Shown here in pieces: positions 1,359 to 43,849 of a DNA stretch of 52,826 bases. The position numbers and the translations under genes are program-made. Source of the stretch: a virus; IMG/VR virus record IMGVR_UViG_3300046323_000202, positions 1 through 52,826 of that record; one strand, given 5' to 3'. The first letter of the stretch is position 1. Each line of letters opens with the position of its first letter. The notes below the pieces were generated by a model. It was not told the origin of the DNA and did no database searches. It saw only the letters and a program-made list of their open reading frames with translations.

Positions 1359-2576
1359 ATGGCAACAAAAGCAAAAGGCGTAAGTAAATTAGTCGCCTAT
1401 AAGAAAGAAACTACTTTCGGTACAGCAGCCGGTACTTCTGGCGGTAAACTCCTACGTAGGACTACCGCTGATTTTACTAGTAATCGTGAAAGTTATGAAT
1501 CCTCTGAGATTCGTGCTGATCGGCAAGTAGCTGATTTCCGTCTAGGTACTAAAAGTACTGATGGCTCATTGTCTGGTGAATTGTCTCCGGGTTCTTACTC
1601 TGATCTGATTCAATCAGTCCTAGCTAAGGATTTCGCAGTCGGTGGTACAGCCGCTGCTATCAGTGTTACTATTGCAGCTTCTGGTTCGTTCTTCACTTTG
1701 ACTCGTGGTACTGGTTCTTACTTGACTGACAACTTCAAAGTTGGTGAAGTCGTTCGTATGACTGGTGCTGGTTTGAACGTAGCTAACGTAGGTAATAACT
1801 GCCTAGTAGTCGCTGTGTCTGCACTCGTGTTGACTGTACGTGTTATCAGCGAAACTACTCTCATTGCAGAAGGCCCGATTGCTACAGTTACTATTACTGC
1901 TGCTGGTAAAGAGTCTATTGTACCTTTGACTGGTCACACTGATGATTCTTACAGCGTAGAAGAGTTCTACTCTGATATTGCTCAATCAGAACTCCACACT
2001 GGTGTTAAGTTCGGTAACTTCTCAGTCAATGTGCCAGCTACAGGATTGGTTACTACTGACTTTACAGCGATGGGTAAAGGGCTGGCTCTAACAGGTACTA
2101 GTGCTTATTTCGTAGCACCTGCTGCATTGTCCACGACTGGTGTAGTTGCTGCTGTTAATGGTGCAGTTATTATCAACGGTTCAGCTACTACTGCTTGCGT
2201 GACTTCGTTTGATCTGTCAATTGACCGTGAAATGGAAGCATCTCAGTGTATCGGTTCTAACTCCGCAGAGGAAATTTTCACTGGTGTTATTCGTGCTACT
2301 GGTAATCTCTCCATGTATTTCGAAGACGGTGTTGTGCGTAGTCTCTTTGAGAATGAATCACTGGTTACTCTGGTGTTGGCTCTCGCTACAGGCACTGAAA
2401 AAAATGCCGGCGTTATTACATTCACTATCCCTAAAGCAAAGCTTTCCAGCTTCTCTAAGGCAGATGGTTCAATGGGTATTACTGCTACTTCCGCATTCAC
2501 TGCTATGTTGAATGATGTTAGCACTGCTGGTCTGCCATTGACTACTATCCAAGTTGTTGATACCGCTGTAGTTTAA
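1359..2576 (+). CDS. Major tail (tube) protein
   Basis: A 405-residue protein rich in Ala, Gly, Ser and Thr with long beta-strand stretches. The N-terminus has a conserved-looking segment (VAYKKETTFGTAAG), and a ETTDxxSNRESYESSEIRADRQ-like motif appears near residue 40, both typical of phage tail-tube proteins. It lies between the terminator-like gene and the tail chaperone pair, the standard place for the tube protein. A strong transcription terminator follows at 2593, as expected for a high-level structural gene. Polymerised hexamer rings would form the tail lumen. The region around residues 90-190 could be an inserted domain; I do not recognise it. Confidence 0.8.
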   Translation: MATKAKGVSKLVAYKKETTFGTAAGTSGGKLLRRTTADFTSNRESYESSEIRADRQVADFRLGTKSTDGSLSGELSPGSYSDLIQSVLAKDFAVGGTAAAISVTIAASGSFFTLTRGTGSYLTDNFKVGEVVRMTGAGLNVANVGNNCLVVAVSALVLTVRVISETTLIAEGPIATVTITAAGKESIVPLTGHTDDSYSVEEFYSDIAQSELHTGVKFGNFSVNVPATGLVTTDFTAMGKGLALTGTSAYFVAPAALSTTGVVAAVNGAVIINGSATTACVTSFDLSIDREMEASQCIGSNSAEEIFTGVIRATGNLSMYFEDGVVRSLFENESLVTLVLALATGTEKNAGVITFTIPKAKLSSFSKADGSMGITATSAFTAMLNDVSTAGLPLTTIQVVDTAVV

Positions 2577-2592
2577 TAACTAGATGAATAAG

Positions 2593-2625
2593 CCCCGGAT
2601 ATCTTAAGTGATATCTGGGGTTTTC
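2593..2625 (+). terminator. Rho-independent terminator after the tail tube gene
   Basis: An 11-base-pair stem CCCCGGATATC / GATATCTGGGG (one G-U pair) with a small loop is followed directly by TTTTCT. It separates the tail tube gene from the promoter and chaperone genes downstream. Confidence 0.85.
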
Positions 2626-2648
2626 TATTTGAGCCTATCACATTTCAC

Positions 2649-2677
2649 TTGCATATTAATACCCTCAATGCTATAAT
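2649..2677 (+). promoter_or_regulatory. Sigma70-type promoter for tail chaperone and tape measure
   Basis: The -35 box TTGCAT (2649-2654) and perfect -10 box TATAAT (2672-2677) are 17 bases apart, with an extended -10 TGC just upstream. It lies between a terminator and the tail-assembly chaperone gene, so it probably restarts transcription there. Confidence 0.75.
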
Positions 2678-2754
2678 AGATTTTGACGAGATATACATCC
2701 AGTATACCTCAATTTAACCAAGGAATAAAACCCTGAACAATAAAGGAAATAACC

Positions 2755-3156
2755 ATGCTTGACTTAGCAGTAAAGAACCTAGCCGACCAATCCGAAGCAG
2801 GATATGAATTTGAGCTTACTTGGCCTCCAACTGGCGAGAAGACCGGGGCTTTTATTAAAATTCGTGGAGCGCAATCCAAGGTTGCCCGCGCATTCGCCCG
2901 TAAGAAGTACACTGAGTTTCGACAGAAAGAGCAGATGGCTAAACGTAAGGGGCGCGAAGAAGAAATGTCATTGGATGATGCTGAAGATATGGCAATTGAA
3001 ACTGCTATTACTCGGATCATTTCATGGAAAGGTATTACTAATGCAGGAGTGGATGTTCCTTTTAATAAAGAGAATGCAGAACGTATCCTTCGTGAACATT
3101 CATGGATCAGGGAATCTATCGTGGAGGAGAGCGATCAGCTCCTGAACTTTCAGTGA
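2755..3156 (+). CDS. Tail assembly chaperone, short form (gpG-like)
   Basis: A 133-residue acidic, helical protein immediately upstream of the tape measure gene, where siphoviruses encode the short chaperone that coats the tape measure during tail assembly. The start ATG follows AAAGGAAATAACC. The stop at 3154-3156 is overlapped by a second, open frame in the +1 register that has no start codon of its own for 170 bases. The pair therefore looks like the lambda G/GT arrangement, in which a fraction of ribosomes shift frame to make a longer product. Confidence 0.75.
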   Translation: MLDLAVKNLADQSEAGYEFELTWPPTGEKTGAFIKIRGAQSKVARAFARKKYTEFRQKEQMAKRKGREEEMSLDDAEDMAIETAITRIISWKGITNAGVDVPFNKENAERILREHSWIRESIVEESDQLLNFQ

Positions 3157-18741: not shown

Positions 18742-21441
18742 TTATTGGCAAGCTTCGCATTCGCCTTTACTTGCTTGCACACCCGCTTGAGTGTACACGT
18801 AGTACAGAGCCAGAATGTTAGGATCAGCAAATGCTTCCTGATGAACTTCAGCAATCCAGTTAGGGGATTCATCAGCAGAGAAGAACAAGTTCAGTGACTG
18901 CCATTGATCAATATATGCAGACCTTGCTGACGCTAATCGTAACACAGCTTTCTGGTTAATCTCGAACGCTGTCTTGAATACTTGTTTCTCTTCATCAGTT
19001 AACCAATCTACCTTCTGAACTGAGCCTTGATTATCTGTCATCTCCTGAATGTGTTTCTTCGTGTATACGCCTTTCTTTTTCATAAGTTCAAGCAACACAG
19101 GATTAGTCCTATCCATTTCACCAGCAGATGTTGTCTGAGTATAACTCATAGCTGGATCAGGATTGATACCCTCTGATACACCACCCATCAGTAAAGCTGT
19201 GGACTTAGTAGGAGCAATCGCAATCAAGTGAGTATTCCGTACTCCATAACCTTTGCACCATTCTGGTTCACCTAATTCTACTGCCATTTCAGACGTAGCT
19301 AATGAAGCACCTTCCATAATACTAGCTGAGATTTCTTGGCTTAACATGTGTGCATCAAAGGATTCAAACGGTAACATCTTCTGCATAAACAATGTATGGA
19401 TACCACATAGACCTAGACCAAGTGCCCTTGATTTCTCAGTGAATTTAACTGCCTTTTCTAATCCGCGAATACCCTTAGCTCGTTCAATGAATTCTCCAGC
19501 TACACAGTCCAAGAAAATAGTAGCCCAGTAAACAGCGTCAGTATCTTTCCATTCGTTGAACTTAGCTGCATTCATCGAAGAGAGTACGCAAGTGTAGGTC
19601 AAGTCTTTACTGTTATGAAGAATAATTTCTGAACATTGTCCTGTCAATAATCCATTGAATACCCCCATTCCTCGTTTTGGTTCTGTAAAACAGTAGGTGT
19701 CATCAATTCGTCCCTCGTCAATTACCTCCATGACTTTAACAAAGTGATTACATTCCCGATTTGGGCGGTGATCACTTAGAACCAACCTGTGAGTCTTAAA
19801 TCCAAGGTCTTGCAAGTTATTTATACCAGTTTGACCAAACATGATTCTCCACGAGTTCTGACAGAAGTACTCCTTGTTTAGCCCCGTACCATCATTTGCG
19901 GGTAAACTGCGCATTCCTTCATCAGCAGCCCACATTACCTTAGAGGATACCCCCATCGTTTGTAGCATCATTTGTATTTCTAGTAAGAAATTCTTATTAA
20001 TACTCCCTGCTTGAATACTTTGAGTAGGTCCATTACGACAAACAACTCCATCACCATCTAAGAATCCAGCAAGCCACTCAAGTTTAGATTTAATTGTATA
20101 GTTCCCAGAGGGTACAAAGAATTTATTCTTCAATAGTTTAGTTGTCTTGTACTGACGATTCATATCCTCTTGCACGTACCATTTACCACCAAGGTCATCA
20201 AATAGGTTTTCAAGTTTACGTTTTGCATGATAAAGGTAGATACGTTGTCCTGCTTTTTCAATACACCCGTCCGCGCTATAAAATCCATTAGCATACGCAA
20301 AATCAAGTGTATCTTCACCTTCAATGATAGGAAAATCGCACTTAATTAGTTTGTCGCCTTTCTTTAATTCATTTGCTCGTTTTTCAATAATCCAGCGATT
20401 ACCACTAACATCATTTCGCATTGCTACATAGAACTTGTGGTAAGGAGTGCATTCTAATTCAAACCCACTATTCGTAACTACCCGAACTAACTTCTGATTC
20501 TCACCAGTTTTCTTTACAACTACACTAGAGAACTCTTTACCATTCCATACATTTACGGTTTCATCTTCAAGATCAACAATCTGTTGATACCCCTCATCTG
20601 TTAGAACTAAAGTTTCAGGTGCTACACAAAGTTGACTGTTGTTAATAAACAACCCTCTATCCTTGTACATAGCTGGACGTTTTTCGTTGGCTTTGTCAAT
20701 AAAGAAGAAGTAGCCCTTACCAGTTACCATCTTGACTTTCATGGCTTTCTGGAAACGCTCTACAGCTTCAGAATCTCCTTTGTTTAAACGATCAATAAAT
20801 GTTTGCTTGATAGTCCACCCAATATTTAAATCATCACCATCTGCGGATAAGTGGTCAATCAGTTCATTGAAGTCCCCGTGTTCAATATCTAGATAGCAAG
20901 CCCAAGCACCTCTACGTGCTGTACCTTGAGCGATATTTCGCATTGCACTTACATGTTCTTTAACAATCGGCATCACCCCGGAAGCCTTACCACCTACACT
21001 GATCTTAGAACCACGAGGACGAATTGAACTCAAATCCGTAGCAGTACCAAAGCCGTACTTGGTCAACATAGCTACTTCGTGTAGATTGCTGTAGAAGCCA
21101 TCCACAGAGTCCTCTGCGACTGTTCCAGAGCATGATACTGGCATACCCCTTGCTGTACCCATATTAGCCAACACAGGAGTACTAGGAGACAACCAACCGT
21201 TCCACAGCAGTTCAAAGAATTTATCTTTCGCTTCAGCCTCAAATACAGTACCTTTTAGATGCTTAGCTGCTGTAGCTGCAATACGCTCAAATTGCCCTTT
21301 AACTGATTTCCCGTTCGTATCGTACTCGTACTTATCAGCGAACATTTGATAGCCGCCTGTGGTATACCAGCTAGGAACAAGACCTTGCTCTTGTAGTTCT
21401 TTTCGTTTCTCACTTAAGTCCTTGTATAGATTCTTACTCAT
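18742..21441 (-). CDS. nrdA: Class I ribonucleotide reductase large subunit, containing an intein
   Basis: 899 codons encoding a precursor in which a 331-residue intein (residues 272-602) splits the enzyme. The joined exteins give a 568-residue protein that reduces ribonucleoside diphosphates. Visible residues: Cys104 (SCSGT, first redox cysteine), the radical site CSEI (Cys603, Glu605), its redox partner Cys618 (TCVLSS), the tyrosine pair Tyr880-Tyr881 (LALYYVY), and the C-terminal CEAC pair that meets thioredoxin. The residue corresponding to E. coli Asn437 is Gln270. No N-terminal ATP-cone is present. The start overlaps the small-subunit gene by 8 bases. Confidence 0.93.
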   Translation of the reverse strand: MSKNLYKDLSEKRKELQEQGLVPSWYTTGGYQMFADKYEYDTNGKSVKGQFERIAATAAKHLKGTVFEAEAKDKFFELLWNGWLSPSTPVLANMGTARGMPVSCSGTVAEDSVDGFYSNLHEVAMLTKYGFGTATDLSSIRPRGSKISVGGKASGVMPIVKEHVSAMRNIAQGTARRGAWACYLDIEHGDFNELIDHLSADGDDLNIGWTIKQTFIDRLNKGDSEAVERFQKAMKVKMVTGKGYFFFIDKANEKRPAMYKDRGLFINNSQLCVAPETLVLTDEGYQQIVDLEDETVNVWNGKEFSSVVVKKTGENQKLVRVVTNSGFELECTPYHKFYVAMRNDVSGNRWIIEKRANELKKGDKLIKCDFPIIEGEDTLDFAYANGFYSADGCIEKAGQRIYLYHAKRKLENLFDDLGGKWYVQEDMNRQYKTTKLLKNKFFVPSGNYTIKSKLEWLAGFLDGDGVVCRNGPTQSIQAGSINKNFLLEIQMMLQTMGVSSKVMWAADEGMRSLPANDGTGLNKEYFCQNSWRIMFGQTGINNLQDLGFKTHRLVLSDHRPNRECNHFVKVMEVIDEGRIDDTYCFTEPKRGMGVFNGLLTGQCSEIILHNSKDLTYTCVLSSMNAAKFNEWKDTDAVYWATIFLDCVAGEFIERAKGIRGLEKAVKFTEKSRALGLGLCGIHTLFMQKMLPFESFDAHMLSQEISASIMEGASLATSEMAVELGEPEWCKGYGVRNTHLIAIAPTKSTALLMGGVSEGINPDPAMSYTQTTSAGEMDRTNPVLLELMKKKGVYTKKHIQEMTDNQGSVQKVDWLTDEEKQVFKTAFEINQKAVLRLASARSAYIDQWQSLNLFFSADESPNWIAEVHQEAFADPNILALYYVYTQAGVQASKGECEACQ
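19636..20628 (-). mobile_element. Intein with LAGLIDADG homing endonuclease in NrdA
   Basis: The intein begins at Cys272 (CVAPETLVLTDEG, splicing block A) and contains a block-B-like ECTPYHKFYV near residue 330. Two LAGLIDADG-type motifs follow: ANGFYSADGC near 384 and EWLAGFLDGDG near 455. The C-terminal block reads GMGVFNGLLTGQ, ending in Gln602 instead of the usual Asn, and the first extein residue is Cys603. It is inserted exactly before the catalytic cysteine of the RNR radical site, a conserved insertion point for RNR inteins. Both self-splicing and homing functions look intact. Confidence 0.92.
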
Positions 21442-22415: not shown

Positions 22416-22748
22416 TTATTCTGTCATTCCACGCAAGGAATATAAATCCTTGACTAAATTATTCCCACTTGATTTATCCTTAGCCTCTTGGCTGGAGTAC
22501 TCTGACTCGATCCACTTCTGATCTAAGCGTTCATTTCCGACAAACCTGCTACAAGTATTGATATTTCCGAACCGATTACGATGAGTGTTGAACTGAACCT
22601 CATAGGGCTGATTAACATCTATTCCAAGGTCATATAACACCCCTTCTAGCTGCTGTGGATTGCTCTGAACCCATTCCTCAGTGTAAAGAGGATTAACCGT
22701 CCATAGCTCGCTTTGGCTAATGTAGACTAGTGCAATAATTGAACTCAT
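22416..22748 (-). CDS. Hypothetical protein between thyX and nrdB
   Basis: 110 residues, soluble and not recognised. Its ATG overlaps the thyX stop (ATGA), and the nrdB gene begins 13 bases after its stop, so it belongs to the nucleotide-metabolism operon. A small domain with SELWTVNP and THRNRFGN is visible but no motif points to a function. Confidence 0.6.
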   Translation of the reverse strand: MSSIIALVYISQSELWTVNPLYTEEWVQSNPQQLEGVLYDLGIDVNQPYEVQFNTHRNRFGNINTCSRFVGNERLDQKWIESEYSSQEAKDKSSGNNLVKDLYSLRGMTE

Positions 22749-23407
22749 TGTTTATCTCCTTGTTTAACTAATGCCTTCCATGCAACGGGAAATAAATCAA
22801 GTGCTTTTATGTTAATCATTTCAGCAACCTCTGTAGCCTCTTTCTGAGTATGAGGATCAAGCCTTAAGCTACACATCTTTGCAAAAGCAAATAAACTTCC
22901 TGACCAAACCCAATCAGTGCATGTATCTAGAAGTAAGGCTGCTCGTGCTTGCTCAGGTGCGACATTCAATGCTAATAGTTCATTATAAGCCTTCAATGAG
23001 TGTTCAGCTAAATCCCAAAAGATTTTATCCGCTAATTCAAAATCATTGTTATTCAATAAACCACCCGAGCCTTGTTTAATTGATTTATCAGGACGGTATC
23101 GCCATTCTAATTTAAAGAACTCCGGCACGTCATCAACATATCGGCGAGATGTTTCATTCCAAGGTAAATATTCGTGTTTTACTAGTTGTCGTGCTACAAA
23201 AATAGGTGCCTTTACTCGAAATGACATAAAAGCATGATTGAAGCAACTCTTATGATTGTGATCAGATAAATACCGAATCAGCTTACTATTCTGCTCATCT
23301 GAATACAAACCAGATGTTTTGTTAAATGAAACCCTTGCTGCATTGACTACTGAATTATCATTACCAAAATGGTCAATATACTCTACTTGTGTTGTTGTCT
23401 TAATCAT
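22745..23407 (-). CDS. thyX: Flavin-dependent thymidylate synthase ThyX
   Basis: 220 residues. It methylates dUMP to dTMP with FAD and methylene-tetrahydrofolate. The ThyX motif is the variant RQLVKHEYLPWNETSRRY (residues 73-90), with Lys77-His78 in place of the usual Arg-His-Arg, a variant form also seen in phage enzymes. The N-terminus NAARVSFNK and the C-terminal LRLDPHTQKE fit the fold. The gene starts inside the end of an HNH gene (8-base overlap). Confidence 0.88.
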   Translation of the reverse strand: MIKTTTQVEYIDHFGNDNSVVNAARVSFNKTSGLYSDEQNSKLIRYLSDHNHKSCFNHAFMSFRVKAPIFVARQLVKHEYLPWNETSRRYVDDVPEFFKLEWRYRPDKSIKQGSGGLLNNNDFELADKIFWDLAEHSLKAYNELLALNVAPEQARAALLLDTCTDWVWSGSLFAFAKMCSLRLDPHTQKEATEVAEMINIKALDLFPVAWKALVKQGDKQ

Positions 23408-24044
23408 TTAACTCCTTAATTACTCTGTTGTAGATATCTGGAAAACTATAACCACTGCATATTGCCTGAAGACATTGGCGGCTATACTTATGATCCTCCA
23501 TGATCATATCAATCGCCCCTTGTTTGGCACGATTTAAGTCTCCTTTAATTTTTAAATATTTCCTGAGAATTATTTCTACCTCTTCGTCCTTAACTACAGA
23601 GTTAAGTGGACGTAATCCTTGAGATTTTCTAGCATGCGCGGAAATTCTGCACCTATCGGCGGCAGGTTTATCTAAATTATTATCCCTAGAACTACCAATC
23701 GCAATGTTGTTTTTACTTAAATCAAGTTTATTTGCGTTAAGGTGTCTTACGTTAACCCCTTTTCTTAATGCAATTTCTCCATATAGTAAATATGCAACAA
23801 ATTTGTGAATGGCAAAAGAGACATTTTTCTTTCTTCCTGTATTGTCATTCATAGTTAAGAACGGATACCTTTGAGTACCGTACTGTTTTGGTTTCATTCT
23901 TGTGCCCAACGGTGTAACAACTTCTTGAGAGTTAAAATCAAAATAGTAACCTCTTTCTACTGCTTTAATTATGTTAAGACAATTGCTGCTGTACTCTAAA
24001 GGATAGTTGATTATACTCTCAGGAATTTCTGGTAGAAATGTCAT
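23400..24044 (-). CDS. Free-standing HNH endonuclease beside thyX
   Basis: 214 residues. The HNH core is FAIHKFVAYLLYG, then NVRHLNANKLDLSKNNIAIGSSRDN, with the expected first His, the RHL pair and the N-x-x-x-DL-x-x-x-N loop. The C-terminal helical region may bind DNA. Codon use is more AT-rich than that of the neighbouring genes. It is inserted between the small gene at 24.05 kb and thyX with tight overlaps on the thyX side, typical of homing genes in phage nucleotide operons. Confidence 0.8.
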   Translation of the reverse strand: MTFLPEIPESIINYPLEYSSNCLNIIKAVERGYYFDFNSQEVVTPLGTRMKPKQYGTQRYPFLTMNDNTGRKKNVSFAIHKFVAYLLYGEIALRKGVNVRHLNANKLDLSKNNIAIGSSRDNNLDKPAADRCRISAHARKSQGLRPLNSVVKDEEVEIILRKYLKIKGDLNRAKQGAIDMIMEDHKYSRQCLQAICSGYSFPDIYNRVIKELND

Positions 24045-30426: not shown

Positions 30427-30503
30427 TGGTGCGAGTGGAGAGACTTGAACTCCCGACATGTTGTGTAGAAGACAACTGTTCTATCCAACTGAACTACACT
30501 CGC
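30427..30503 (-). tRNA. tRNA-Arg (anticodon UCU)
   Basis: 77 bases including an encoded 3' ACCA. Acceptor stem GCGAGTG / CACTCGC pairs fully. The anticodon stem GTTGT / ACAAC encloses loop CTTCTAC with anticodon TCT, reading AGA. D-loop AGTTGGATAGA and T-arm GGGAG-TTCAAGT-CTCTC are normal. AGA is used often in the phage genes, so the tRNA may supplement the host pool, or replace a host tRNA cut by a defence nuclease. Confidence 0.95.
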
Positions 30504-35466: not shown

Positions 35467-36015
35467 TTAACTTGTAGTGATTGTAGCATCAATCATATCT
35501 GTAATGTCTTTTCTACTCCTCTTATTCATAATGCTACTGATCGTTGTCCTTGGCTTACACATACTCCTAGCTACCTCAGCAACGCCTTCACCGGACTTGA
35601 CACGAGTGTAGCAGTCAATGACTTGTTCTTTAGTAAGAATCACAATTGAAGCATCAGTTGACCGCTTAATCATCCGTCCTTCCTCGTGCGCGTGTTTGAT
35701 GTTATCTGAACCTGAAATCCACTCAAGGTTGTCAACGTGGTTGTTGGACTTGTTGCAGTCTTTATGGTTCACTTGAGGGAGATTATCTGGATTGTCCAAG
35801 AAATGTTTAGCGACTAAACGGTGAATGTAATCGCGTTTGCTTTTAGTTTTACCAGAGTCAGACCTATAAGTTGCAACTTGCACTGAGAAATAACCCGCGC
35901 CATTGTCAGTTAGCTTTCGATGCTCTCCTTTTGTGTTAGTGATAAATCCTGTGTTAGATACTCGTGATGTAATAACCCCATTGAAGTAGACATCTTTCCA
36001 AATTTCTGTTGTCAT
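35467..36015 (-). CDS. Free-standing HNH endonuclease beside the polymerase intron
   Basis: 182 residues with an N-terminal NUMOD4-like segment (WKDVYFNGVITSRVSNTGFI), the HNH core IHRLVAKHFL then QVNHKDCNKSNNHVDNLEW, and a C-terminal DNA-binding helix region (TKEQVIDCYTRVKSGEG, then VARSMCKPRTTIS). It starts 17 bases after polymerase exon 2, outside the intron. The gene is not inside the intron, so it may move the adjacent ORF-less intron in trans (collaborative homing). Start follows AAAGGGC. Confidence 0.82.
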   Translation of the reverse strand: MTTEIWKDVYFNGVITSRVSNTGFITNTKGEHRKLTDNGAGYFSVQVATYRSDSGKTKSKRDYIHRLVAKHFLDNPDNLPQVNHKDCNKSNNHVDNLEWISGSDNIKHAHEEGRMIKRSTDASIVILTKEQVIDCYTRVKSGEGVAEVARSMCKPRTTISSIMNKRSRKDITDMIDATITTS

Positions 36016-36032: not shown

Positions 36033-36191
36033 TTAGTGAACATCACGCCAGCTACCTTCGTAGCTTATCTTACCTTCTCCGTTAAGTGGCAATGCTAGCT
36101 TGAGTAATTCGCCAGCTTTAACAATAGCCTTAACACTCATTTTTTGGATAGCTTCCTGTGCACCATCTTCGACTTCAAAGCTGTATTCGTC
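36033..36191 (-). CDS. DNA polymerase, exon 2 (motif C and C-terminus)
   Basis: 52 codons read DEYSFEVEDG, then AQEAIQKMSVKAIVKAGELL, and end SWRDVH before TAA. DE at the start completes polymerase motif C: exon 1 ends MVH, and joined they give MVHDE. The end resembles the T7 polymerase C-terminus (WAICH). Total spliced length is 707 residues, against 704 in T7. The segment has no start codon and no meaning without splicing. Confidence 0.85.
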   Translation of the reverse strand, partial: DEYSFEVEDGAQEAIQKMSVKAIVKAGELLKLALPLNGEGKISYEGSWRDVH

Positions 36192-36421
36192 CTTACTGTT
36201 GTGTACTTCGTTAGAGTACGCCCAGATTGCTCCGGGTGTCGGGCTAGCTCACCTTCCACCAGGGAAGTCTTCCATTTCGGATTCACTTGAACCCTACTCC
36301 CTTTCGGGATAGCCTCCACACGTTCCCTGCTAAGGGCTTCGCTCGGTATTGCCCACGAGGGGTTTCACCGAATTAGAAAGATTATTCGACTGATATTACT
36401 ACCAGAAGGCACCACAAATTA
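36192..36421 (-). ncRNA. Group I intron (T4 td-like, subgroup IA2), 230 bases, ORF-less
   Basis: The first splice site follows a U (CAT of exon 1) and the last intron base is G, as group I introns need. Core blocks resemble the T4 td intron: CTATCCC, GGGAGTAGGG, TTCAAGTGAATCCGAAA, with AATCTTTCTAA near the 5' end. The exon end GCAU can pair with GUGC at intron positions 10-13 to form P1 with a U-G at the splice site. The stop TAA at 36419-36421 is the first intron triplet. No ORF lies inside; the HNH gene is next door. Confidence 0.8.
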
Positions 36422-38386
36422 ATGCACCATTGAAATACGCTTAACTACTTTACCTTCTAGCAAATAGTAAGGTCTGCCTAACTCATCCAAATACATATCC
36501 CCAAGCCAAGTATCCATCAGACAAGCTGCATAGGACATTGCAATAGCACCACAACCTTGCCCTAGACACGATAGTAGCACGTTCTTACCACGAACAGAAA
36601 CAATACGTCCATCAATAGCTGGAATGTACTTTTTCTTACCAGTTGTCTCAAAGTACCCCTCGACTTGTTTCTTGAGTAACCCCAGACCTTTATTACTTTC
36701 CCAGTAGTTATCAAACGCTGCTTTGCCTGCACTCTGAGATAAACCAAGACTACTTGCTAGCTTAGGCGCTCCACCACCGAATGCCAGAAGGTATGCTCCA
36801 GTTTTAGCCTTGTTCCTCCATGACTTGAACTCAGGATTCTCTTTGTTAGTCTGGTCATTAATATCGAACTTCTCGTGCAATGCAGGAAAGAAAGCAAATG
36901 CGTTAAAACTATGAGGATCGCCCTCAGTCTGCATCCTAGCAAAAGCGCCATCATCGTACTTGTATGTGTAGCTACTGAGTGTTCTATTTTCAAGAGCGGC
37001 AGCATCAGTTCCACAGTACCAATAACCATTGTCAACATAGAACAAATCCCGCATTTCATTTCCAAGTAGAACCTTTGGGTCAGCCTTGGGACAATTCACT
37101 ACTGTCTTGTGCTTAACCCTTGACGTTGGTGCATAGCCAGAAATCTCAGCAGACAATCTCCCATCGAATTCAATACGCCAATTAGATAACCAACCATTGA
37201 CTACCCCTAATCTGTTTCTTAATGAAAGAAACTTAACTACCTTACGAGGAATCTCCCCATTTAGTTTCTCAAGATTAGGACAAAGCTGGCCTTGATTTTG
37301 AATCTTTGGTGTTGTCTTAATGAACTTATTCTTTTCGTCACGTATTGGCTTACCGTCTGGACCTTTCTTTACATTCCAGAAATCCTCATGAGGCTCCCAC
37401 CCGGAATCAATAAAGTACTGTTTTAACTCAGCGTTATCATCAATTTCCATTGGGAGTTCAATCGGTAGTACAGCATTCGCTTCGAGCTTTACCTTTAATC
37501 CATAGGCTTCAATCCAGCCATTACTCAATGTAGCACTGTGCTTCTCTAACCATTTAACCATCAACGCAGACATCTCACCGTTCTTTGTGAAGGGCTTACT
37601 TGGCTGCTTATAGAATGCTTGCTCTGCGGTCTTTAAAGCCCTAGGTGGTAGCTTAGGGTCAACCTCTAGCTTAATTACCTGCATAGCCTCTTCTACGTGC
37701 TTTACAAGGGCTTGTGCTTTGTCTACATTGAACCTAACACCAGTGTAAGCTTGCGCTGAGTACAGAAAGTAATCCTTCTGCATTTGACGAAAGCTAGGAT
37801 GCACCCAGTTCTCGCCATATAGAACTTGCGCTTGACCCCAAAGATTATTGAATACTTTAATCGTAGCATCCACGTCACGGTTACAGTAAGGCTCCATTAA
37901 CTCGTGATAAAAACTGAACTCGGTTCCCTTGGGTGAATCACGTTCTAACGCTCCAGCATCAATTAGACTTTTCCTATAGTCAATCTTACCTTCTTCATCC
38001 TCTGAACCAGAGAGGTACTCAAGGGAATGCTTAATTGAATTAGGATTCAAGTACATACTCAGAACGTAAGTATCCACGAATTGTACGTGCTTATCCTCAA
38101 TCCAATCCTTGCCGCCTTTACCTACCCTTGGCTGAATTCCAAGGAGCTTCCAGAGTACCCATAAATCGTACCCAAGACCATTATGCTGTACTACATAAGC
38201 ACCATCGTCGAATGAGTTCACCCACTGCATGATCTTTTCATAGTTCACTTCAGTACTATCACGAAATGGATGAATGCTTATTTCTCGTGCTCCGCCCAAT
38301 GACTTGAACTTGATGTACCAAATCTTCTTTGATTGTAAGTACAAATTATCAGCTTCAATGTCAAAGCACCAACCGTTTATGCTCAT
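36422..38386 (-). CDS. DNA polymerase, exon 1 (T7-like family A, with 3'-5' exonuclease)
   Basis: 655 residues. The N-terminal proofreading domain has CFDIEAD (Asp9, Glu11), HNGLGYD (Asn69, Asp74) and the YCNRDVD motif. The polymerase domain has motif A YCGTDAAAL (Asp461) and motif B RNKAKTGAY (Arg524, Lys528, Tyr532). It stops just after MVH because an intron interrupts motif C. Catalytic Asp656 and Glu657 are supplied by exon 2. This is the replicative enzyme, paired with a T7-like primase-helicase upstream. Without splicing the protein would be inactive. Confidence 0.92.
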
Positions 38387-42329: not shown

Positions 42330-43220
42330 TCAAAGATCAATCTTATCACGGATGCCCTTAAAAACCCCAAACCGGGGCACATCATACCCGCCCACATCGA
42401 AATATTTAACAGTAGCCAACTTACCAACTAGACTGTCGCGCACAGCCCACAGTTCATCCCTTGTTTTATCATCAAAGCCACTACCGCAACCGAACTCTTT
42501 ACCTTCTGGTGTACGCAAATAAAGTACTCCAAGTGTGTCCAGTGCAACCATACCTTCTTTATTGGTCGAACGTGAGGTTCTGCCTAGCTCATTAACTTTA
42601 GCTTCATTTGAATTATGGTACTTGCACTCAAATCCTACGATTTCGAATTCAGAGTCTCTGAACAATTTCATTTTCAGTAGCAACCCTTCCTTGATACTTG
42701 ACCTTCCGAACTTGTACTTTCCAGTCATTTTCTTAACCATAGCACCCTCATAACCCTCTTCCACTGCTTTAGTCCTGTAAGCCTCCAGTTCAACCTCAGA
42801 TCGTACAACAGTCTGCTTCAGCACTACTACCCTAGGAATCAATGGAAGAGCTTCTAGGGCTTCCTGACGCTCTTGTGCTGTGGATGTAATATTCACTCTA
42901 TCAAAAGCAAAGAACTGGAATTCCTCGACTTTATCAATTGACATTACGAAACTGGTTGTATCCCGAAATACTGTCTCGGACGTAGGTGAACCGTTAATGA
43001 ACTCTCCGTCAAGTCCTTCAAGATTCTGAGCATTCTCCTTAGCCCATTTCTGGATGGAAAGATTAGGAATCAGCTTAAGACTACGAGAATAAGCTACACC
43101 GTTGAAAATGGTTGCTCGAATACCGTCTAGCTTTTTACTAACATACAAAGGGTAACTGAGCTTACTCAAGTCATCAATTTGTGTCGCTAACATCGGGGAG
43201 AACTTACGATCTTTATTCAT
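42330..43220 (-). CDS. ATP-dependent DNA ligase
   Basis: 296 residues, the minimal two-domain size (like T7 ligase). Motif I is KKLDGIRA with the adenylated Lys30. DGEF (motif III-like, near 71), FFAFDRV, EGAMVK and LLKMKLF follow in order. It seals nicks during replication. Its ATG overlaps the upstream HNH stop (ATGA). Confidence 0.92.
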   Translation of the reverse strand: MNKDRKFSPMLATQIDDLSKLSYPLYVSKKLDGIRATIFNGVAYSRSLKLIPNLSIQKWAKENAQNLEGLDGEFINGSPTSETVFRDTTSFVMSIDKVEEFQFFAFDRVNITSTAQERQEALEALPLIPRVVVLKQTVVRSEVELEAYRTKAVEEGYEGAMVKKMTGKYKFGRSSIKEGLLLKMKLFRDSEFEIVGFECKYHNSNEAKVNELGRTSRSTNKEGMVALDTLGVLYLRTPEGKEFGCGSGFDDKTRDELWAVRDSLVGKLATVKYFDVGGYDVPRFGVFKGIRDKIDL

Positions 43221-43756
43221 TTTCCATGCCTTTCTGTATAATCACCAATTGTGCTCAGCTTGTCTTCTCTCCAGTTGATTGCCAACTCCAGAGCGGCCTC
43301 TTCACCAAGTTTTAAAAGATTGAAAGATTTACTTCTGGTTTTACCGTCATGTTTGATTGTAGCAATAACATACTCGATAGTGTTGACAGTGTAAAAACCT
43401 ATCCCAGTAATACCTGAGATATTATTAGATTGCTTTCTTCTATTCCTAGTGTTAACTTTTTGAGATGTCACTCTTATATTCTTTATATTGTTATTATAGG
43501 GATTTCCATCTAGATGGTCTATAATAAAATTATTTAGAATTTCTTTGCTATTTAATATAGCAATAATTCTATGTACTAACCACCTTCCACTATTAAATGA
43601 AAGCATCCATCCTATACGCCCAAGCGACTTCGCTTTTTTAGAAGGTATTCTACCAACTGGTTTATTATTTAAGTTACTTAAACCAGTTGGACTATCACTA
43701 TCTAATTTAAAATGCAATTTCCAATCTACTTCATAGTAGTCTCTTGTTGTTTTCAT
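43217..43756 (-). CDS. HNH endonuclease with AP2-type DNA-binding domain
   Basis: 179 residues from the ATG at 43756, which follows AGGAGAAAAT; a longer frame to 43819 would read through the promoter. HNH core: WLVHRIIAIL, then IDHLDGNPYNNNIKNIRVTS. The C-terminal part (GITGIGFYTVNTIEYVIATI, then KSFNLLKLGEEAALELA) is an AP2-like domain. Codon use is clearly AT-richer than its neighbours. It is a free-standing homing endonuclease next to DNA ligase. Confidence 0.85.
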   Translation of the reverse strand: MKTTRDYYEVDWKLHFKLDSDSPTGLSNLNNKPVGRIPSKKAKSLGRIGWMLSFNSGRWLVHRIIAILNSKEILNNFIIDHLDGNPYNNNIKNIRVTSQKVNTRNRRKQSNNISGITGIGFYTVNTIEYVIATIKHDGKTRSKSFNLLKLGEEAALELAINWREDKLSTIGDYTERHGK

Positions 43757-43775
43757 ATTTTCTCCTGTTAAAACT

Positions 43776-43804
43776 AGAGTATACCTCAAAAGAGCGCGAG
43801 TCAA
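43776..43804 (-). promoter_or_regulatory. Sigma70-type promoter of the HNH / ligase operon
   Basis: On the minus strand -35 TTGACT is followed at 17 bases by TACTCT, or at 15 by TATACT. It lies 14 bases past the terminator at 43818-43849 and reads into the HNH and ligase genes. Confidence 0.6.
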
Positions 43805-43817
43805 CCTCAAAAACAAC

Positions 43818-43849
43818 AAAAGCTCCTATCCGTTAGAACAGGAGCTTTA
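43818..43849 (-). terminator. Terminator after small genes, before the ligase operon
   Basis: A 9-base-pair stem AAAGCTCCT / AGGAGCTTT with a 12-base loop ends in TTTTG on the minus strand. Confidence 0.7.

Follow-up and report, generated by a model that had tools for sequence, protein, structure and literature searches.

A group I intron in motif C of a phage family-A DNA polymerase gene and the HNH endonuclease gene directly behind it

Results

A split polymerase gene and its two exons

The window analyzed here, a phage contig of 52,826 nucleotides (IMG/VR record IMGVR_UViG_3300046323_000202), carries on its minus strand a DNA polymerase gene that is split in the middle of catalytic motif C. 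The interruption is, we conclude with near certainty, a group I intron whose removal would join ...CAU to GAC.... The first-pass annotation was correct in reading the gap as a group I intron; the insertion site is already known, and what is new is the HNH endonuclease gene right behind the polymerase.

Exon 1 (36422-38386, minus strand), an open frame of 655 codons, encodes a family-A (T7-like) DNA polymerase and ends in ...VKRISMVH. The next codon is an in-frame TAA, and the frame thus stops after MVH, as originally described. After a gap of exactly 230 nt (36421-36192), exon 2 (36033-36191, minus strand; 52 codons and a stop) starts with the two catalytic motif-C residues, DE. Its translation, read from 36191 to 36033, is DEYSFEVEDGAQEAIQKMSVKAIVKAGELLKLALPLNGEGKISYEGSWRDVH (DEYSF...WRDVH, followed by the stop), which agrees with the earlier description of a start-less continuation DEYSFEVE. 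Upstream of the junction the frame of exon 2 stays open only as far as 36248, a stretch with no ATG, GTG or TTG, so exon 2 alone could not be made in full; the first ATG within the exon comes well after its start. Joined, the two exons give a stop-free frame of 707 amino acids, the spliced length that had been predicted. The polymerase was assigned to its family by a match to PHROG 17 (DNA polymerase, E 1.2e-71), and it also matches Pfam DNA_pol_A with an E-value of 2.7e-5, under the curated cut-off. Alignment of the joined protein, which the first-pass annotation had proposed as a check, runs continuously across the junction with uninterrupted homologues, and an alignment with mycobacterial Pol I extends through VHDE. 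An unspliced product would be expected to stop at 655 amino acids and to lack the catalytic DE; the frames and the intron fold both support the earlier claim that splicing is needed to join H to DE.

Detection of the intron

In an 801-base search, the Rfam group I model RF00028 matches 36431-36220 (full model, 32.4 bits, E 2.4e-6), so that the covariance search proposed earlier did find a group I core. The score falls below the curated gathering cut-off of 50 for RF00028, which is why a default Rfam scan missed the intron; the scores of relatives arranged alike are 44-79 bits. With the window left out, the introns of six relatives yielded a covariance model that recovers the window intron with 171.7 bits and an E-value of 3.8e-56, the E-values of this model being rough because of a short calibration. 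When the seven introns (the window and the six relatives) were folded together with RNAalifold, 45 pairs were obtained, and in 33 of these both partners have changed in one or more of the sequences. By the Rfam match, the covariance model and this covariation, the stretch 36192-36421 (minus strand) folds as a group I intron far above chance. It contains no open reading frame within its 230 nt. An HNH endonuclease gene inside the intron, in P6a, was looked for in the window intron and is absent; the P6a loop measures 4 nt.

Two other covariance matches were set aside. An Rfam group II match within the region searched (12.8 bits, E 2.8) is attributable to chance, and a weak match of the model from the six relatives, at 23024-23184 on the minus strand (14.8 bits), falls inside an intact open frame, 22745-23407.

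Intron fold and splice sites

A U closes exon 1 and a G is the final base of the intron (36192), both as the first-pass annotation had read them, and the same holds in all seven introns. P1 (36408-36428, minus strand) is formed by the exon sequence GGUGCAU (36428-36422) and the internal guide sequence GUGGUGCC (36415-36408); read from the sequence, it has a U.G pair at the 5' splice site and one bulge. The histidine codon before the intron is CAT in 7/7 intron-bearing genes versus 6/17 intronless ones (p 0.006, indicative only since the sequences are related), a preference that fits U.G pairing at the 5' splice site.

Downstream of P1, the core helices P3-P8 are present, with the P3/P7 pseudoknot (all coordinates on the minus strand). 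P3 (36268-36381) pairs UCUUUC at 36381-36376 with GGAAGA at 36273-36268 and encloses the hand-drawn helices P4-P6 (36371-36325) as well as P7.1 (36309-36298, UCCC/GGGA) and P7.2 (36293-36280, GGUUC/GAAUC). The guanosine-binding helix P7 (36242-36314) pairs GGCUA at 36314-36310 with UAGCC at 36246-36242 in a pseudoknot with P3. This pairing varies among the relatives, reading GGUCA/UGACC at locus L017, GACUA/UAGUC at four others and GGACA/UGUUC at L120. P9 (36236-36221) and the terminal hairpin P9.2 (36219-36203) were likewise drawn by hand, and a GNRA loop sits on P2 in all seven introns. Including the P3/P7 pseudoknot, the hand-drawn helices pair throughout (311/311), a count that carries no statistical test as the helices were chosen by eye.

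The presence of both P7.1 and P7.2 between P7 and the 3' strand of P3 defines subgroup IA2. By hand assignment, these two helices indicate that the window intron belongs to this subgroup, as the first reading had proposed. The 'td-like core' blocks named in that reading (CTATCCC and GGGAGTAGGG) do mark subgroup IA, but they belong mostly to the peripheral P7.1 hairpin beside the 5' strand of P7 and not to the catalytic core.

Empty sites and a second intron-bearing relative

When viral contigs were scanned with the joined protein, 20 loci were obtained; 17 are unbroken at the junction and two end before it. The uninterrupted homologues are 63-79% identical to the window polymerase. The remaining locus, L017, lies on a separate uncultivated phage contig (IMGVR_UViG_3300050144_000058) and bears an intron of 232 nt at the same site, 76% identical to that of the window. 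Its polymerase is 80% and its downstream HNH protein 58% identical to the window's.

Window and L017 are identical over the 44 exon bases that flank the intron (36181-36454, minus strand; 33 on the 5' side and 11 on the 3' side), corresponding to CDS 1933-1976 with the junction at 1965/1966. This tract is the longest identical run among 28 polymerase-gene pairs, the next being 30, and the two polymerase genes are 73% identical in DNA overall. We considered recent transfer between window and L017 as its source and rejected it, given identities of only 76% between the introns and about 61% in DNA between the HNH genes. The tract may possibly reflect constraint from splicing or from endonuclease recognition.

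Several polymerase genes in the set carry insertions elsewhere. Near residue 495, L027 (4614-5434) and L029 and L031 (5485-6413) have another insertion, which in L027 and L029 appears intein-like by a look at the sequence and by PHROG matches. In addition to its intron, the polymerase gene of L117 holds an insertion of roughly 870 nt (2149-3017).

The insertion site in known phages

Gene 5 of the T7-like phage 13a is annotated as a join of two pieces and reads TGGGTGCAT, then the intron, then GATGAGATTCAA. Insertion position and phase are identical in the window and in 13a: at CAT/GAY, in phase 0, separating the His of motif C from the Asp. We take 'site 881' in Pol I numbering to be the boundary His881/Asp882, the E. 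coli Pol I sequence being H881-D882-E883. The gene 5 introns of the T7-like phages PhiI and W31 are placed at this 'site 881' (PMC3428280). Thus the motif-C insertion site is not new, with examples in T7-like phages on record since 2004.

PhiI and W31 (with the HNH endonuclease I-TslI) and 13a share with the window the host gene family, the insertion site and the logic of P1. By contrast, their introns hold the HNH gene inside, whereas the window has an ORF-less intron and, downstream, a free-standing HNH from another clade, and their polymerases are very distant from that of the window. Phages SPO1, SP82, Bastille and Pf-WMP3 resemble the window in having group IA2 introns in family-A polymerases, but at a different site, 674, and with the HNH inside.

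Pattern and covariance-model searches uncovered many further introns at the His/Asp site; one pattern, CATTAATNNNGGTGGCTTYRY, matched mostly unrelated DNA and was dropped. Among them, recovered by the covariance model, is the polymerase of the isolated Vibrio phage S4-7 (L010, KX507046), which has an ORF-less intron at the same site as the window but differs in having an extra intron upstream and in lacking an HNH of the window's clade right behind the polymerase. Its polymerase gene contains two group I introns, at 1960-2221 and 2547-2829, and the exons are annotated as separate genes.

A clade of free-standing HNH genes beside polymerases

In the window, a free-standing HNH endonuclease gene (35467-36015, minus strand; 182 amino acids) adjoins the host gene of the ORF-less intron, beginning 17 nt after the polymerase stop, and is a candidate homing partner of the intron. 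It matches PHROG 59 (HNH, E 5.4e-37) and, just below the cut-off, Pfam HNH_3 (24.2 bits). A tree places it in a 14-member clade (support 100/100) that was gathered by searches for the HNH and for the intron and whose members all lie beside DNA polymerase genes. Twelve adjoin family-A polymerases, nine of them with the motif-C intron (the window, L017, L035, L036, which is cut by the contig end, L037, L117, L120, L121 and L209) and three intronless (L118, L119 and phage M1). The other two, L034 and L116, follow an unrelated polymerase (PHROG 1252). The polymerases at which intron and clade HNH occur together can be as far apart as about 25% identity.

Among close intronless relatives with readable downstream DNA, the clade HNH is absent from at least 15, and other HNH genes lie behind the polymerases of L019, L024, L025, L028 and L033. 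It is also missing at seven or more ORF-less introns: L186, L191, L193, L197, L204 and L213 have no HNH nearby, and L184 has instead a GIY-YIG gene behind the polymerase (by a look at the sequence). Still other motif-C introns encode an HNH inside (L187, L189, L192, L198, L199, L205 and others). A two-by-two tally of intron against clade HNH gives a Fisher p of 0.035, which is only suggestive because the loci do not all come from one search. The 14 free-standing HNHs form their own clade (100/100), apart from the intron-encoded ones, and we therefore rejected a recent exchange between the two kinds.

The HNHs of L116 and L117 are 91% identical behind unrelated polymerases, and a similar promoter-like stretch lies upstream of each. 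This pair suggests that the HNH moves by itself.

The window contains other features of this kind. The ribonucleotide reductase large subunit (18742-21441, minus strand) has an in-frame intein with a splicing domain and a LAGLIDADG domain at about residues 272-603. Two further HNH-like endonuclease genes lie at 23400-24044 and 43217-43819 (both minus strand), the latter with an additional weak AP2-like match, and a tRNA-Arg gene (anticodon TCT) lies at 30427-30503 (minus strand).

Discussion

The fold, its covariation, the restoration of the frame at the splice sites and the empty sites in relatives together lend splicing strong support from structure, and we infer that the intron almost certainly removes itself, autocatalytically, in the cell. 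In the mechanism that we propose, P1 would form between the exon GGUGCAU and its guide GUGGUGCC, P7 would bind guanosine, and splicing would join the exons into a 707-residue family-A polymerase. As a second and less certain step, the downstream HNH would cleave polymerase alleles lacking the intron, at its insertion site or close by, and repair would copy intron, exon 2 and the HNH gene together. Such a scheme corresponds to collaborative homing, in which a neighboring endonuclease opens the intronless site (PMC3984707, PMC10448857).

We favor collaborative homing by the downstream HNH over independent spread, at what we judge to be about an even chance, on the pattern of occurrence of intron and HNH: at 9/12 family-A loci with the clade HNH the intron is present too, and at least 15 close relatives without the intron also lack this HNH. 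The existence of both HNH-only and intron-only loci weighs against the homing step. The broader proposal is that ORF-less intron and free-standing HNH constitute one two-part mobile element, which would home into motif C of very distant (about 25% identical) family-A polymerases in phages unrelated to T3 and T7. We regard it as plausible, if a shade short of probable.

Free-standing endonuclease genes beside a gene with an intron insertion site have parallels in two cases linked with collaborative homing, gene 5.3 of phage T3 and F-CphI beside psbA of cyanophage S-PM2. T3 differs from the window in that its own polymerase is intronless and its HNH falls outside the window clade (27% over 82 amino acids), and F-CphI in coming from another endonuclease family and accompanying another host gene, psbA. 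The T3 case points to the main alternative, that the intron splices but the HNH is unrelated to it and spreads alone by intronless homing, as is thought for T3 gene 5.3. We give this alternative somewhat less than an even chance. On this reading, endonuclease genes would often land in the region downstream of phage polymerases, which the other HNHs at L019, L024, L025, L028 and L033 support. Furthermore, HNHs of the same clade lie beside the intronless polymerases of L118, L119 and M1 and beside the unrelated polymerase, the nearly identical HNHs of L116 and L117 follow different polymerases, and ORF-less introns occur apart from the clade HNH. Against this, it is one specific clade, rather than any HNH, that accompanies the intron so often, a tally that remains suggestive, and that is missing from 15 or more close intronless relatives.

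Two other readings concern splicing itself. A dead or degenerate intron in a pseudogene, with the phage using another polymerase, would be in line with the Rfam score under the gathering cut-off, but the conserved helices, the splice-site U.G pair and the final G are all intact, both exons are open and conserved, and a non-exhaustive look through the ORFs recognized no second polymerase gene; we consider it very improbable. Least probable of all is that exon 2 is translated alone and the two halves assemble without RNA splicing, for which split ribonucleotide reductase offers a phage precedent but which is opposed by the missing start codon upstream of DE, the first ATG well inside exon 2 and the folding of the gap as a group I intron.

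A spliced polymerase, as we read the gene, has a practical consequence, since the enzyme is essential: where a gene caller misses the intron, the enzyme is reported as truncated and without its catalytic pair, as the separately annotated exons of S4-7 illustrate. The more interesting part is the tie, at present suggestive, of one HNH clade to the intron over very distant polymerases. At this single site four arrangements are found, namely an HNH without an intron, an ORF-less intron with an adjacent HNH, an intron with an HNH inside and an ORF-less intron alone, and the gain and loss of endonucleases by mobile introns is thereby open to direct comparison. If intron and HNH do form one two-part element, these loci would represent a natural series of the proposed steps by which mobile introns acquire endonucleases.
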